The notes under the pieces are model-generated. The model did not search any database. It was not told the DNA's origin and saw nothing but the letters and a program-made list of their open reading frames with translations. From positions 372,001-436,000 of the forward strand of contig NZ_CP066203.1 of the NCBI RefSeq assembly GCF_017310545.1: 64,000 nt of DNA, in the 5' to 3' direction. This document shows, piece by piece, positions 17,774 through 30,267 of the stretch; the first letter of the stretch is position 1, and every line of letters starts with the position of its first letter. This stretch comes from Methylacidimicrobium sp. B4 (GTDB taxonomy: Bacteria > Verrucomicrobiota > Verrucomicrobiia > Methylacidiphilales > Methylacidiphilaceae). The translations under genes were made by a program, and so were the position numbers.

Positions 17774-19066
17774 TTTCTGTAAATTTCGGTGTCGGCGCTC
17801 ATCCGCGTAGGGCTACGGGTTGAGGGTGAGGTAAACCTTGCTGGTCATCCACTCGTCGTCGAGTTCGGCAAGGAGAGCCGAGACGAGCCGTAGGCAGGAT
17901 TCGGGATTGGGGAAGATGCTGGCCACACGGGTGCGGCGTCTCAGTTCCCGGTTGATACGCTCCAAGCCGTTGGTGGTGCGCAGCCGCAGGTGGTGCTCGG
18001 GCGGGAAGTCGAAGACCGTCAGACCCTCAGCAATGGCCTCCTCGGCCCAGCGTGCGAGCTTGGGGTGTTCCTTATGCCAAAGCGCAAGGGTGATCTTCAA
18101 CAGCCGCTCGGCTTCGGCCCGGTCGGGGGCATTGAAGATGGCGCGCAACTGAGCGGCAACCGTCATTCTCGCCTCGACGCGGGTGACGAACTGACGGGCG
18201 TTTTGTTGCAGGTGGAACTGGCAGCGTTGCCAGGGAACCGCAGGCAACACCGCTCGGCGGGCGGCCTTGAGCCCCGCGTGGTCGTCGGCAACGATGAGCC
18301 TCACCCCCTTGAGCCCTCGACGCATGAGGCCCTCCAGACAGTGCCGCCAATGGATCTCGGCTTCCGAAGTGGCCACCTCACAGCCCAGCACCCGGCGCTT
18401 GCCCGAAGCCTCGACGCCGACCGCGACCAAGACGGCGCAATCGACGATTCTTCCCTCCAGGCGGACTTTCTCGTAGCGGGCATCGAGAAAGAGGTAGGGC
18501 ACTTCGCCCAAGGGACGCTCACGCCAGGCGGAAAGCCCCTCATCGAGCTTGGCGGCGGCGCGACTGACCTGGGCCGAAGAAAGCTTGATTTCTGGCCCCA
18601 AGAGCCGCTGCAACACATCGATCACGCGCCGGGTCGACACACCCTGGACATACATCTCGGCCAGAGCGAGATGGACGGCTTGATCGGTGCGCGTTCCCTT
18701 TTCCAGAGCGGAGGGATAAAAGTCACCCGAGCGCACTTGCGGTACCTCGAAGGTAATCTCGCCCAGCTTGGTCAGAACCGTCTTGGGTTTGAAGCCGTTG
18801 GCATAATCGCGCCGGTTTACGCTGCGCTCGTAGGGCAGGGCGCCCAGAAAGTGCGAACGCTCCATCCTGGCGGCCTCGTTGACGAGGATGCGCAAGGCTT
18901 CGCCAGCGCCCTCCAGGCCGTGCTCCAGCAGTACCGCATAGGCTGCCTCTAGTGGATTGGGTTCGATTCGCATTGCCATGAGCACATACTCCTTTCTCAA
19001 AGCCTTGGCACCATGACCGCTGCCCGGCGAGCTTTCAGCCTACTGCTGAAAAGGAATTTACAGAAA
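17774..19066 (-). mobile_element. IS256-family insertion sequence
   Basis: About 1.29 kb bounded by imperfect inverted repeats: the left end reads TTTCTGTAAATTTC and the reverse complement of the right end reads TTTCTGTAAATTCC. One transposase gene fills it. The eight bases outside each end (CAACCCCT on the left, GAACGATA on the right) do not match, so no target duplication is visible. It lies exactly between two broken paralogues, which fits deletion or recombination after insertion rather than a simple insertion. Exact ends may be off by a few bases. Confidence 0.8.
17813..19000 (-). CDS. IS256-family (MULE-type) transposase
   Basis: 395 residues, full length for the family. The DDE triad can be placed: Asp in YLFLDARYEKVR, Asp in LIVADDHAGLKAA, and Glu in TTNGLERINRELRRR, with the C/H-containing WQRCQFHLQQN between the second and third. 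Upstream the N-terminal part carries FLGALPYERS...ANGFKPKTV typical of IS256 transposases, which move by copy-out through a circular intermediate. The frame is intact, so the element may still be active. Methionines within the first ten residues give alternative starts. Confidence 0.92.
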   Translation of the reverse strand: MRKEYVLMAMRIEPNPLEAAYAVLLEHGLEGAGEALRILVNEAARMERSHFLGALPYERSVNRRDYANGFKPKTVLTKLGEITFEVPQVRSGDFYPSALEKGTRTDQAVHLALAEMYVQGVSTRRVIDVLQRLLGPEIKLSSAQVSRAAAKLDEGLSAWRERPLGEVPYLFLDARYEKVRLEGRIVDCAVLVAVGVEASGKRRVLGCEVATSEAEIHWRHCLEGLMRRGLKGVRLIVADDHAGLKAARRAVLPAVPWQRCQFHLQQNARQFVTRVEARMTVAAQLRAIFNAPDRAEAERLLKITLALWHKEHPKLARWAEEAIAEGLTVFDFPPEHHLRLRTTNGLERINRELRRRTRVASIFPNPESCLRLVSALLAELDDEWMTSKVYLTLNP

Positions 19067-19570
19067 GAACGATACGCAACTGATGTACTTTTCGAAAACC
19101 TGCTTTTCCATGGCAACCGCTTCGGGAAAGCTCAGTCCCAGCCGAACCCACGGGGGAGCATCGTCGCCAAATACCGCAATGCGCCAGGGAACACGGACTT
19201 CCCTGTTTTCTACGAGGACATAGGTGCGGGCGCCGCCGATACCTCGGTGAAGCGGATCCCAATTCCGAAACTCGTAGTAGGTGATCCCATTGGCCGCCTT
19301 GAGCTGCGCAGCGATCACCTGCGCTTCTCCCCCAAAGATCTTCTGCCAATCTTCGGTGGAAATCTCTGGAGGACGCGGGGAGGGCGGAAGCGACGGCTCG
19401 GTCGCGGGAGGAGAGGGGGCGCTTGGCCCCTGGCCGGGAAACGCCTCGTTTTGGACGCCTTCTATCACTTGGCCGAGAGATGAAGCCAAGAGGAAGAGCC
19501 AGAGGGTGGCTGAAAGGAGCGGCGCAAGAAGCGAGGCAGGGGTGCGCGATCGAGCGAGAACAAGCTCCAT
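19058..19570 (-). pseudogene. Exported-family member truncated at its 3' end by the IS
   Basis: Starts at ATG 19570 (GGAGA eight bases upstream). A signal peptide (LLAPLLSATLWLFLLASSLG) and a proline-rich linker lead to the family core STEDWQKIFGGEAQVI and a LKAANGITYYEFRNWDP segment. The frame then crosses into the insertion sequence after EKQVFEKYIS, and its stop codon TAA is supplied by the inverted repeat. Compared with the intact paralogue about 90 C-terminal residues are missing. Core identity with the fragment across the element shows these were tandem copies. Confidence 0.75.
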
Positions 19571-19903
19571 CGTGCTTCTCCATAGGACAAGCCCGAAGGC
19601 ACGGGGTGAGCCGCAGGGGAAGCTCGACTCGCCCGGAAGCCAAAAAGCCGCTGCCAACTACAAGAGAGGGGGACAAGCAAGTGATGGCGCGACCCTGGCA
19701 AGGAGGATGGCTGTCCACTCTTGCCCAATCCGAGGTGCGAGTCCGCACGGCTGGAAGGGAGGCCACTCCCTTGGGGAAAGAAGGGGGACGGGTTGCGGTT
19801 GACGGCCGGCAAGCCACCCTATTGAATAGTAAGCCAGTAGACCAAAAGGATCGACTGGCAAACCAAAAAGCGGAGGCTACCCAAAAGCCCGTTGGGAGAT
19901 ACC
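19571..19903. other. Intergenic region, no gene seen
   Basis: About 330 bases between a minus-strand gene start and the + strand Sel1 protein. It must hold promoters for both, but I see no convincing -35/-10 pair, repeat or RNA structure. Open frames here read as arginine/serine-rich noise. Confidence 0.5.
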
Positions 19904-21001: not shown

Positions 21002-21760
21002 TCATTTCGGAGAGCTCTTTTGTGCCGCTTGATTGCAGGCTTCCTCGGCGCGAGTGGGTGGCTTGGCCTTCTCAATGCCGAGCCTGGCATTGAGGATGTG
21101 CTGATCCTCGGGGGCAAGAGCAGGTAGGATGAAATCCTTTGGAAGAAGGCCCAGCTCCCTGGCCGCTTCCAGATGCTCTGGATAGTAATAGGAAGCATAG
21201 ACTTCGAAGTCTCGAATGGGCGTTCCCGGCTTCCGGTCATACCTTTTGCGCCAGCACTCAGCAACCGCCTCCCGTCCCTCCTTTTGAATGGCATCTCCTA
21301 CGTACTTCCGGATCAGTTGCTTCTCCATCTCCACCGCTTCCGGAAACGTGAGCCCAGCAGCGGTCCATGGGGGCTGGGGCGGACCATCGATTACATCATT
21401 AGTCCAGAGCACGATCGCCTTGCCGGCCTTCACGCGCACATAGCTTCCAATGGGACCGGCCCCATCCTCGTCCTCTGGATTCCAATGGATGATGCTGTAG
21501 TAGGTAGCACCGTCGGCCGCATGGACCTGTGCTTCGATGACCTGCGGCCTTCCTCCAAAGAGTCGCTGCCACTCTTCCGGGGGAATTTCCGCCGGCCGCG
21601 CAGAGGGCTCTCGGAATAGAGGCTCGGCAGCGAAGAGGACGGTGGGGATCAGCGGGAGAAGGCAGAGGATCCAAGGGAGCCGGTACTTCCCGCGACAGGC
21701 GCGGATCCAGAATCCTGTTAAGAGAGGCACGCGGTCTTGCAATCTGGGGTTTCTTTTCAT
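21002..21760 (-). CDS. Intact member of the DWQ-type exported family, unknown function
   Basis: 252 residues from ATG 21760. This start gives a membrane segment or signal (LPWILCLLPLIPTVLFAAEP); no strong ribosome-binding site is visible, and longer starts upstream are possible. The core motif PPEEWQRLFGGRPQVIEAQ aligns with STEDWQKIFGGEAQVI of the two IS-broken copies. Further shared blocks are PPWTAAGLTFPEAVEMEKQL, a YYYPEHLEAARELGLLPKDF segment and a charged helical C-terminus. It is the only complete copy of three in this window. I do not recognise the family. Export plus paralogy suggests an envelope or secreted protein that diversifies. Confidence 0.7.
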   Translation of the reverse strand: MKRNPRLQDRVPLLTGFWIRACRGKYRLPWILCLLPLIPTVLFAAEPLFREPSARPAEIPPEEWQRLFGGRPQVIEAQVHAADGATYYSIIHWNPEDEDGAGPIGSYVRVKAGKAIVLWTNDVIDGPPQPPWTAAGLTFPEAVEMEKQLIRKYVGDAIQKEGREAVAECWRKRYDRKPGTPIRDFEVYASYYYPEHLEAARELGLLPKDFILPALAPEDQHILNARLGIEKAKPPTRAEEACNQAAQKSSPK

Positions 21761-22066
21761 GGCTTTGGTTTTGCAGAAGTCAGGTCTTCGCAACGGCAGG
21801 GATGGATTCCCAATCCCAACACCCATGAGCCAGGGAGAGCGGCGGTTTCCGGACCCTTTCGGTAGAAGGAAGCCGAGCCGCTCTCCGAGAGATGCTCGCG
21901 TAGGCAATCAGGCGGGAATCGGCTGCATCTAGCCATTCAAGAGGAAGAGGAGACGCCGAGAGCCACAGTTCGAAAGCAGCGGGGGAGCTCAAGCTCCTCT
22001 TTTTTCCTTCGCTCACGGCTCTGACCTCCGCAGAGGCAGGCAAGCTCGGGCTTTTCCATGAGGGCC
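21761..22066 (-). other. Region downstream of the coiled-coil gene
   Basis: About 300 bases. A minus-strand frame continuing to 21937 carries sequence that looks like a continuation of the coiled-coil protein (AEVESAKALMEKPEL, then RERRKKEELELPRCF). If the annotated gene is frameshifted, the true gene would end at 21937. No other feature is seen. Confidence 0.35.
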
Positions 22067-27376: not shown

Positions 27377-28156
27377 ATGCATCGTGCCGTTGATCCATCA
27401 CCGGTGTCCGGCGAGAGGGTTTATTTTTCCGATATCCGGGCCGGATTCGCGAAGCTCCTTGCCGATCGCTTCTGGTTTCCCAAGATTTTTCTCGGCGGCT
27501 TCCTCCTGATCAATCCGGTTCTCTTGTCGCTCGCCCCGAAGTGGGCGGGCGAGCTCGCCCAGCACAAAACGCTGCTCTTCTCCCTGCTCGCCGTCAACGT
27601 CTCCAGCTTCTGGTTCTCCTTGGGCTTTACCTACGAGGTTCTCCGCCGGGCACGCTTCGGCGGCCAGCAGCTACCCGGATGGAGCGTGCGCGTTCTTGGC
27701 CAATATGTGCGCGAAGGGGCGGTGAAGTTCGCCATCTCCCTCACGACGTTGCTCTTGCCGCTCTTGGCTTGGGTCGCCTTCTGCTACGGCCTCTTCATCC
27801 GGCTCCTCGGGCTTCCTTCAACCTTGCTCTCGCTCTTCGTCCCTCTCGGCAGCTGGCTCGTGGTTCCGTTCTGCGCCGTGGCCTGTTGCCGCTGGCTCGA
27901 TGGCGCCCCGGTAGCCGCTTGCGCGCTTGACTACCGGGAAAATCTACGGATTTTGTGGAGAAAGCGAGGGGACTTCCTCATCGCTTCTGCTTTCCTGGGC
28001 GGGCTCAACGCCATCCTCATCTCTTGCTTTTATACGCTCCCGTTCGCGCTCTTTTTCGGGCTCTGCCTGGTCGATACCTGGTTTGGTCCCATTTATGCTT
28101 CTGCGGTAGAAAACCAGCCCCGCTCGTTCGCCTCCACGGGCTCACGAACTCCCTAG
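27377..28156 (+). CDS. DUF4013-type polytopic membrane protein
   Basis: 259 residues with about six membrane helices (for example IFLGGFLLINPVLLSLAP, LLFSLLAVNVSSFWFSLGF, FAISLTTLLLPLLAWVAFCYGLF, LNAILISCFYTLPFALFF). A GGxQLPxW-type motif (GGQQLPGWSVRVLGQY) after the second helix is the signature of DUF4013 proteins, whose role is unknown. AGGAGG lies upstream. It belongs to the same + strand run as the glycosyltransferases and the PAP2 phosphatase, which suggests a transport or lipid-carrier role in envelope synthesis, but this is inference. Confidence 0.7.
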   Translation: MHRAVDPSPVSGERVYFSDIRAGFAKLLADRFWFPKIFLGGFLLINPVLLSLAPKWAGELAQHKTLLFSLLAVNVSSFWFSLGFTYEVLRRARFGGQQLPGWSVRVLGQYVREGAVKFAISLTTLLLPLLAWVAFCYGLFIRLLGLPSTLLSLFVPLGSWLVVPFCAVACCRWLDGAPVAACALDYRENLRILWRKRGDFLIASAFLGGLNAILISCFYTLPFALFFGLCLVDTWFGPIYASAVENQPRSFASTGSRTP

Positions 28157-28180: not shown

Positions 28181-29386
28181 GTGATCTTCTTGGACTCGGC
28201 AGCGGCGAACCCGGTCCTTCCGGCGGTGCTGGAAGCGATGCTTCCCTTTTTCCGGGAGCCGGGCAATTCCGCTAGCCTCCACAGCGCCGGTGTGCGGGCG
28301 AGGGAAGCCTTGGAGCGGGCGCGGGAGGCGGTTGCAGCCTTCCTGGGGGCCGCTCCCACCGAGATCTTCTTCACCTCCGGTGGCACCGAATCGATCAATC
28401 TCGCCATCAAAGGGTTCTACGAAGCCAACCGCAAACGGGGCGGCCGCATCCTCTGCTCTCCTCTCGAATCGGCCGCGGTGTTGCGCTCGCTCGACTGGCT
28501 GCGCGGGCAGGGCGCGGAGATCGTATCGGTCCCGATCGACCGGGAAGGGCGCGTCGATCCCTCCGCCATCGCCGCGACGCTCAACCCCGAGACCATCCTG
28601 GTCTGCGTCCAGTGGGCCAATGGCGAAACGGGCACGATGCAACCGATCCGGGAAATCGGGGAGATCTGCGAGGGGGCGGGGGTGGCTCTCTTCTGCGACG
28701 CGACGGCAGCCACGGGCTGGACGCCGGTCGATTTCCACGACGTCCCGGTCGCTCTCTCCGCGGTACACTTCCGCGGGTGCGGAGGTCCCGTGGGGGTTGG
28801 TGCCCTCTACAAACGAGAGGGAGTCGCTCTCCAGGCGCAGATTCATGGGGGTCCGCAAGAGAAGGGAGTGCGCGCGGGAACAGAGAATCTTCCGGGAATC
28901 GTCGGGACGGGCAAGGCGGCGGAGCTGGCCACGGGGACTGTGGCTGCCACGGAGGTTCGCCTGCGCTCCCTTTCGGACAAGCTCTGGACGGCGCTCCGCA
29001 ACGAGGTTCCCGAGCTCCATTGGCACGGTCCTCCTCCCGGGGAGGGGCGTCTGCCCCATCATCTGGCTTGGAGTGCTGAAGGAATCGAAGGAGAGGCGCA
29101 GGTGCTCGCCTGCGATCTCCAGGGAGCGGCAATCGCCGCAGGTCCGAGCTGCATGAGCCAGTCGCTCCGGGGCAGCCCTGTTCTTCGGGCGATCGGCGTT
29201 CCAGCGCGGCTGATTTTCTCAGCCATCCAGGTCACGCTCCACCGGGGGATCACCGAAACGGATCTCGACTCGTTCCGCCGAATCTATTCCAAGGTTGTCG
29301 AAAGGTTGCGATCGCTCTCGCCCGCCTGGCAGATCGCGAAGGAGCGACTAGCTTCGTCCCCCTCTGCGGACGGGGGGGGCCGGTGA
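28181..29386 (+). CDS. Cysteine desulfurase homologue lacking the PLP lysine
   Basis: 401 residues with the fold-type I signature of NifS/IscS: FLDSAAANPVLPAVLEAM at the start, EIFFTSGGTESINLAIKG, WANGETGTMQPIREIGE, QAQIHGGPQEKGVRAGTEN and a Cys loop AAGPSCMSQSLRGSPVLRA. However, key cofactor residues are missing. The SxHK motif that carries the PLP lysine is replaced by SAVHFRGCGGPVGVGALY with no lysine. The His of TEHxAV is Ser (SPLESAAV), and the Gln of DAxQ is Ala (CDATAATG). It probably cannot bind PLP covalently and may be a regulatory or structural pseudoenzyme. It overlaps the PAP2 gene (GTGA). Confidence 0.8.
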   Translation: MIFLDSAAANPVLPAVLEAMLPFFREPGNSASLHSAGVRAREALERAREAVAAFLGAAPTEIFFTSGGTESINLAIKGFYEANRKRGGRILCSPLESAAVLRSLDWLRGQGAEIVSVPIDREGRVDPSAIAATLNPETILVCVQWANGETGTMQPIREIGEICEGAGVALFCDATAATGWTPVDFHDVPVALSAVHFRGCGGPVGVGALYKREGVALQAQIHGGPQEKGVRAGTENLPGIVGTGKAAELATGTVAATEVRLRSLSDKLWTALRNEVPELHWHGPPPGEGRLPHHLAWSAEGIEGEAQVLACDLQGAAIAAGPSCMSQSLRGSPVLRAIGVPARLIFSAIQVTLHRGITETDLDSFRRIYSKVVERLRSLSPAWQIAKERLASSPSADGGGR

Positions 29387-30156
29387 GCGATTCACGGAGC
29401 TCAGCGACAGATCAGCCGGACGGAGGGGTCGAGCCGGAGAAAAAGCGCTGGCTCCACCGGCTTGCGCTTTCCATAGGCCTTTTGGCCGCGGGACTCTTCC
29501 TCACGTTCCCGCTCGATTTTCGCACCTATCACACTCTGGAGCGGATCGACCGGCCCGTCTTTCAACACCTGGCACAGCAGTTGAGTCTCTGGGGAGACTA
29601 CTTTCCCGGAAGCATTCTCGTGTCGGTTCTCTTGTTTGCTGGAGGCTGGGTGGCCAGGAGCCGGCGGGCCCGCTTGGCCGCCCTGGCAAGTTTGCTGGCG
29701 GCCACCGCCTCCGGCCTGACCGTCGACGCCGGCCGCTTCTCCTTGGGCCGGCCTCGGCCCTACGCCACGGCAGCGGAGGCTCTGACGATCGGGTACCGGC
29801 CGGTGCCGAGGGTCTCCTTCGGAAGGATCCGTCCGGACAATGACCTTCTCGACGGGTTCTACGGCCCGGTCGGCATCCACATGTTTCAGGGATTTCCCTC
29901 GGGCCATGCCGCCTCGTCGATGGCGAGCGCCATCGCCATCGTCCCACTGGTTCCGGAACTCGGCCTTCCCTTGAGCCTTCTTTCCGCAGGAGTCTGCTGG
30001 TCGCGAATGGAGCTCCGGCAGCACTACCTCTCGGATGTCACCGTCGGGGCAACTTGGGGCGCATTGTGGGGGATTTATCTCGGTGGACTCTTCTCTCGAC
30101 GCATCACCCATCGGCCGAGACCGGCTCCCGCCTCGCCGCCCAAAAGGGAGATTTGA
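29383..30156 (+). CDS. PAP2-family membrane phosphatase
   Basis: 257 residues from a GTG start overlapping the upstream stop. Membrane helices include LALSIGLLAAGLFLTF and ILVSVLLFAGGWVA, with others around residues 95-110 and 185-235. All three catalytic signatures are present: RFSLGRPRP (motif 1, here beginning with Arg rather than Lys), FPSGHAAS (motif 2) and SRMELRQHYLSDV (motif 3 with the nucleophile-polarising His and Asp). Such enzymes dephosphorylate lipid phosphates, for example undecaprenyl pyrophosphate or phosphatidic acid. As the last gene of a glycan cluster, recycling of a lipid carrier is a reasonable inference. A strong terminator follows. Confidence 0.85.
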   Translation: MSDSRSSATDQPDGGVEPEKKRWLHRLALSIGLLAAGLFLTFPLDFRTYHTLERIDRPVFQHLAQQLSLWGDYFPGSILVSVLLFAGGWVARSRRARLAALASLLAATASGLTVDAGRFSLGRPRPYATAAEALTIGYRPVPRVSFGRIRPDNDLLDGFYGPVGIHMFQGFPSGHAASSMASAIAIVPLVPELGLPLSLLSAGVCWSRMELRQHYLSDVTVGATWGALWGIYLGGLFSRRITHRPRPAPASPPKREI

Positions 30157-30231
30157 ACGAAAGCGGAAGAGGCTGCGTCGAACTTATCAGAAACCTCGAA
30201 AGAATCGTTTTCCTCCTCTAACGATTCCCCG

Positions 30232-30267
30232 AAGAGCGGCACGGTCGCCCGTGCCGCTCTTCTTTTG
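30232..30267 (+). terminator. Intrinsic terminator after the envelope cluster
   Basis: A perfect 13-base-pair stem (AAGAGCGGCACGG / CCGTGCCGCTCTT) with a 4-base loop is followed by CTTTTG. It ends the + strand cluster. The same hairpin lies 3' of glnA on the other strand but has no T run in that direction. Confidence 0.85.

Follow-up and report, generated by a model that had tools for sequence, protein, structure and literature searches.

The window, by which we mean the whole 64,000-nucleotide stretch of DNA analysed here, encodes a protein that is, to judge by its sequence matches, an IscS/NifS homologue in a Verrucomicrobiota genome (Methylacidimicrobium). Its gene lies between genes for a DUF4013-like membrane protein and a PAP2-family phosphatase (Table 1). 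All 401 codons up to the stop at 29386 are open, with zero internal stops. The product matches Pfam Aminotran_5 (E 9.2e-52, residues 2–364), i.e., the fold-type I, class V aminotransferase-like domain at full length, and it scores below the equivalog cut-offs of both NCBIfam NifS (E 2.9e-100, 335.7 bits; cut-off 530.75) and NCBIfam IscS (272.1 bits; cut-off 643.2). Together with full-length sequence matches to solved IscS proteins, this bears out the initial annotation, which had described NifS/IscS fold motifs in an intact 401-residue frame. The AlphaFold2 model (pLDDT 89.9, pTM 0.89) has very low confidence only at the Cys loop (residues 323–327) and the C-tail.

Table 1. Features in and around the lysine-less iscS gene (window coordinates).
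Feature	Position	Strand	Remarks
DUF4013-like membrane protein	27377..28156	+	24 bp upstream of the iscS-like gene; below Pfam cut-off
Lysine-less IscS homologue	28181..29386	+	GTG start, 401 aa
Site of lost SxHK motif, H196-F-R198-G199-C200-G-G202 codons	28766..28786	+	
Cys324 (Cys-loop cysteine) codon	29150..29152	+	Conserved in every homologue compared
C-terminal R-L-R-S-L-S-P-A-W, residues 375–383	29303..29329	+	Matches IscU-binding end of IscS
PAP2-family phosphatase	29383..30156	+	Start overlaps stop of the iscS-like gene by 4 bp
Terminator-like hairpin, 14 pairs, 3' of PAP2 gene	30231..30262	+	Consensus match only

The overlap with the PAP2 gene at 29383, already reported in the initial annotation, is present as described. 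The hairpin may mark the end of a three-gene unit; the count of terminator-like sites was not above shuffled expectation. The DUF4013-like gene adjoins the iscS-like gene in all three sampled genera of the window's family, and PAP2 follows directly downstream in two of them, Methylacidimicrobium and Methylacidiphilum. The proposed envelope glycan operon therefore holds in part: glycosyltransferases do lie upstream in Methylacidimicrobium, but were seen only there, and the unit common across genera is DUF4013-like, iscS-like and PAP2. Elsewhere in the window, a Mutator/IS256-type transposase-like ORF was recognized by eye about 9 kb upstream (17813–19000, minus strand). Two further minus-strand ORFs 1.3 kb apart (19058–19657 and 21002–21907) share a similar stretch (PPEISTEDWQKIFGG and PAEIPPEEWQRLFGG) and are apparently paralogues of an uncharacterised protein.

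Residues Lost and Kept in the Cofactor Pocket

Residues were compared in a gap-free alignment with solved IscS proteins, using E. coli IscS numbering. Ser203-Gly-His205-Lys206 of E. coli IscS align to His196-Phe-Arg198-Gly199, and the aldimine lysine by which type I desulfurases hold PLP (Lys206) is thus Gly199, both here and in five congeners. The lysine loss claimed in the initial annotation is therefore correct, although the “SAVHF” segment to which it was assigned is not the SxHK site and sits a few residues before it. Two other replacements had also been recognized, namely histidine to serine in TEHxAV (H104S, Ser97) and glutamine to alanine in DAxQ (Q183A, Ala176). The joint loss of cofactor contacts extends further than was noted, to N155G (Gly148), S203H, H205R alongside K206G, and R354Q (Gln350), Arg354 being the likely substrate-carboxylate residue in E. 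coli IscS. At the aldimine position no second lysine, which would have overturned the original claim, was found in any of six orthologues, and the genus-invariant lysines are K77, K211, K228, and K245.

T76, D180, T243, and the catalytic C328 are kept, the last as Cys324; the Cys-loop cysteine had rightly been called as retained, and it is the sole cysteine conserved across every homologue compared. The dimer/phosphate-cup motif RAGTEN is also retained. A new cysteine, Cys200 (28778–28780), directly follows the position of the lost lysine; it is genus-invariant, and nearly all other members of the order have Phe there. Using published IscS interfaces for comparison (IscU-binding end and TusA side; PMC2854127), we found that the IscU-side surface (EGEAQVL and RLRSLSPAW) persists in Methylacidimicrobium despite the loss of IscU, and that the residues of E. 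coli IscS that contact TusA are partly kept (W45 is Val and R220 is Glu).

Five of the six other genomes of the genus encode full-length orthologues (70–88% identity) with the same pocket replacements, apart from one genome in which the N155 and R354 positions are both Ser; a search for orthologues sharing the substitutions had been suggested as a check. No close match was found in the sixth congener, an 83% complete draft (G003). Among congeners dN/dS is 0.12–0.25, a rough figure given that dS exceeds 1 in several pairs, and this is similar to the DUF4013-like neighbor and below PAP2 in most pairs. The shared pocket and the low dN/dS indicate that the gene is maintained. Conserved orthologues, purifying selection, and the invariant Cys-loop cysteine all support the earlier characterization as a maintained pseudoenzyme rather than a product of random decay.

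An Old Lysine-Less Lineage and Its Neighbors

Lysine-less homologues occur in six of the nine sampled families of the order. The residue at the lysine position is mostly Arg; one sequence has His, Methylacidiphilum has Gln, and Methylacidimicrobium has Gly. Records that carry the labels Aminicenantota, Acidobacteriota, Bacillota, Thermodesulfobacteriota, Myxococcota, Nitrospirota, and Aquificota contain others, as does one archaeon. When 194 Verrucomicrobiota genomes were searched with a strict cut-off (1e-78), matches came from the window's own order only. In a tree of 84 sequences, for which no root was inferred, 42 bacterial lysine-less sequences from eight phyla fall on one side of a single branch (SH-aLRT 99.9). 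The branch persists after removal of nine pocket motifs (SH-aLRT 97.9), which rules out that the grouping is an artefact of shared pocket losses. A tree joining the archaeal lysine-less pair to the bacterial sequences was not rejected (p-AU 0.657) and scores above the free quick tree. Thus one or two lysine losses both fit, and a separate archaeal origin is unsupported as fact, since the data accommodate a single origin equally well or better. All lysine-less sequences tabulated have a change at the Gln183 position, and all but those of Methylacidiphilum have one at the Arg354 position too, a pattern that speaks for loss of the entire chemistry rather than of a single residue. Overall, the window protein is a locally modified end of an old lysine-less lineage that spans the order and several phyla, and these relatives rule out that it is unique to this operon.

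In a second genus of the window's family, which from its place there we infer to be Methylacidiphilum, the pocket is altered even more than in the window protein while the loop cysteine is kept: at five loci (L027, L028, L030, L031, L034) the phosphate-binding motif TSGGTE has become TGGIWE or TGGSWE, and RAGTEN has become WGGTEN or WGGSEN.

In another family of the order (f9) the gene order is iscU, lysine-less iscS, mrp. IscU (about 1e-49) directly adjoins the lysine-less gene in 12 f9 genomes, and the f9 IscU examined scores above the NifU_clost equivalog cut-off. Proteins of the f9 units (G033, G020, G025) are direct homologues of the window protein (41–43% identity) with the same Cys-loop cysteine; they have Arg at the lysine position and keep His104 and the IscU and Mrp neighbors, unlike the window protein. 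Because lysine-less relatives in the order are still found in such units, the lysine loss is older than the placement beside PAP2. IscU also lies beside lysine-less genes in Aminicenantota, Bacillota, Myxococcota, Thermodesulfobacteriota, Nitrospirota, and one archaeon, mrp adjoins them at L041, L067, and other loci, and an Rrf2 regulator is found beside some.

Outside the genus, TusA is encoded within 3.5 kb of 7 of 19 lysine-less loci (L046, L060, L063, L074, L095, L096, L099) versus 0 of 57 lysine-containing ones (Fisher p 2.3e-5), a count in which the loci are related to each other and some flanks are short. A test by independent pairs includes one or two independent lysine losses, too few for significance, and we treat the association as a lead and not as proof. 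DsrE joins TusA at Bacillota and archaeal loci. For example, the order TusA, DsrE, lysine-less IscS, IscU is seen in a Methanomethylicus genome (L095:53–2276), and the same four genes occur in Bacillota (L060, L063).

The situation in the window's family is different. No IscU was found among its 13 genomes, each of which has a single NifU_N match that scores like a SufU. In G000 this match is a SufU adjoining SufS (SufU equivalog 141.8 bits; cut-off 92.5). Thus, with SufU only in the genome, the gene is not encoded with an IscU-type scaffold, as A. fulgidus-type or MIS pairs are, and the best-documented partner is missing, which counts against the relay reading. TusA is present in 13 of 13 genomes of the family versus 4 of 47 others of the order, and DsrE-like, TusA, and SQR-like genes stand in a row (G000:C1 ~1280895–1282862, equal to L203:4896–6863; G011, L205:4409–6275) far from the iscS-like gene. 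This lack of linkage, with contact residues only partly kept, counts against a TusA relay here. The window genome keeps three lysine-containing NifS/IscS-type proteins as well as SufS with SufU, and ordinary desulfuration is therefore independent of the lysine-less protein.

Lysine-Less IscS Proteins Already Known

IscS without the lysine is already known as a kind, from A. fulgidus, from M. acetivorans (IscS1), and, to judge by sequence, from recent Aquificales PDB entries. The A. fulgidus protein, with Asp in place of Lys, is described as having no desulfurase activity and as giving a Cys ligand to the [2Fe-2S] cluster of IscU (PMC7585200, citing Marinoni 2012, Yamanaka 2013, Pagnier 2014). 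Like A. fulgidus IscS2 (PDB 4eb5, 4eb7, 4hvk), the window protein has the IscS fold with the aldimine lysine replaced, the Gln183 and Arg354 positions lost, and the Cys-loop cysteine kept. It differs in having Gly where IscS2 has Asp, in lacking the His104, Asn155, and Ser203 that IscS2 keeps, and in belonging to a family without IscU, with which IscS2 forms a complex; in a further IscS2 entry (PDB 4r5f), the sequence shows Lys where the others have Asp. M. acetivorans IscS1 is likewise described as being without the catalytic lysine (PMC7585200); it is archaeal and, unlike the window protein, encoded with IscU. Minimal IscS/IscU pairs of this sort are now named the MIS system, according to PMC12442378.

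PDB 9wfy and its variants (9wep, 9wer, 9wew, 9wf8, 9wfb, 9wfe) are a lysine-less IscS of Aquificales type close to L067, which has Leu at the lysine position, an adjacent mrp, and a place inside the same bacterial lysine-less group as the window protein. The pocket of 9wfy is less altered than that of the window protein and has Leu where the latter has Gly. The other entries shown carry Lys and further canonical residues, and we read the set, from the deposited sequences, as a probable stepwise reversion series towards canonical residues. No paper on this PDB series was found in the open-licence literature, and the same literature yielded no description of how widely the bacterial clade is spread, of its linkage to TusA/DsrE, or of the form without IscU in the window's family, which is weak evidence of absence.

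A Proposed PLP-Free Role for the Loop Cysteine and Its Rivals

Having lost the aldimine lysine, His104, Gln183, and the substrate Arg, the window protein should not desulfurate cysteine: the internal aldimine with which the reaction starts presumably could not form, and both PLP binding and desulfurase activity are predicted to be absent. In canonical IscS the loop cysteine is mobile and carries the persulfide. Since this is the part that has been kept, a PLP-free role as relay or ligand is favored. Our preferred reading, which we would call about evenly balanced, is that of a PLP-independent pseudo-desulfurase that works through Cys324. The cysteine might accept and relay sulfane sulfur made elsewhere, for which TusA/DsrE would be the most plausible donor in the wider clade, or it might serve as a Cys ligand or scaffold for a partner, with IscU as the likely partner across that clade. 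For the window's family itself, a relay role and its partner are put forward as a hypothesis.

Among the rivals, a purely structural pseudoenzyme whose partner, either an envelope protein (DUF4013-like, PAP2) or an active desulfurase subunit, is regulated or localised by it, with Cys324 incidental, seems rather unlikely though worth weighing. The three-gene neighborhood is conserved in two genera even though the IscS homologues are only about 37% identical, IscU is gone from the family, and Methylacidimicrobium keeps the RAGTEN motif, whose Thr in IscS serves the site of the partner subunit. An incidental role is hard to square with a cysteine that is the only one present in every homologue, however, and the neighbors, which are not the same elsewhere in the order, cannot explain the origin of the lineage. 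Less probable still is a new activity or ligand (e.g., metal, thiol, or disulfide) at the former PLP site involving His196, Arg198, Cys200, Ser97, and Cys324. Such a site would fit the new, genus-invariant Cys200 and pocket positions whose invariance within the genus is slightly above background (10 of 12, p ~0.05, weak statistics), but the quite different pocket of the sister genus Methylacidiphilum (Gln, Tyr, Trp) argues against a shared new site.

The two remaining explanations are very improbable. An ordinary desulfurase that holds PLP without a lysine, or with another one, would be in keeping with the retained cofactor contacts Asp180, Thr76, and Thr243, yet six orthologues lack a lysine at the aldimine position and Arg354, His104, Asn155, and Gln183 are gone. 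A slowly decaying gene or an annotation artefact might account for a branch that is longer in the tree than that of the f9 lineage. Decay is disfavored by purifying selection, with dN/dS like that of the DUF4013-like gene, and by the frame being full-length in every congener that gave a match, and the fold is confidently predicted.

On a wider scale, we tentatively suggest that lysine-less IscS could be a second, widespread type of Fe-S and sulfur-transfer component in bacteria, PLP-free, that takes sulfane sulfur from TusA/DsrE rather than from cysteine and passes it on by the loop cysteine; the extreme form in Methylacidiphilaceae would then have outlived IscU and might now serve another acceptor, supplied by SQR-DsrE-TusA sulfide oxidation. 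The sulfur for ISC-type Fe-S assembly is assumed to come from cysteine, and annotations call IscS a desulfurase in whatever genome it occurs. If a large clade encoded beside IscU, Mrp, and often TusA/DsrE is unable to desulfurate, many “cysteine desulfurase” annotations would be wrong, and the same clade would make a cysteine-independent sulfur supply directly testable. The window protein would be a useful extreme in this respect, as it has lost both pocket and scaffold and kept the cysteine.
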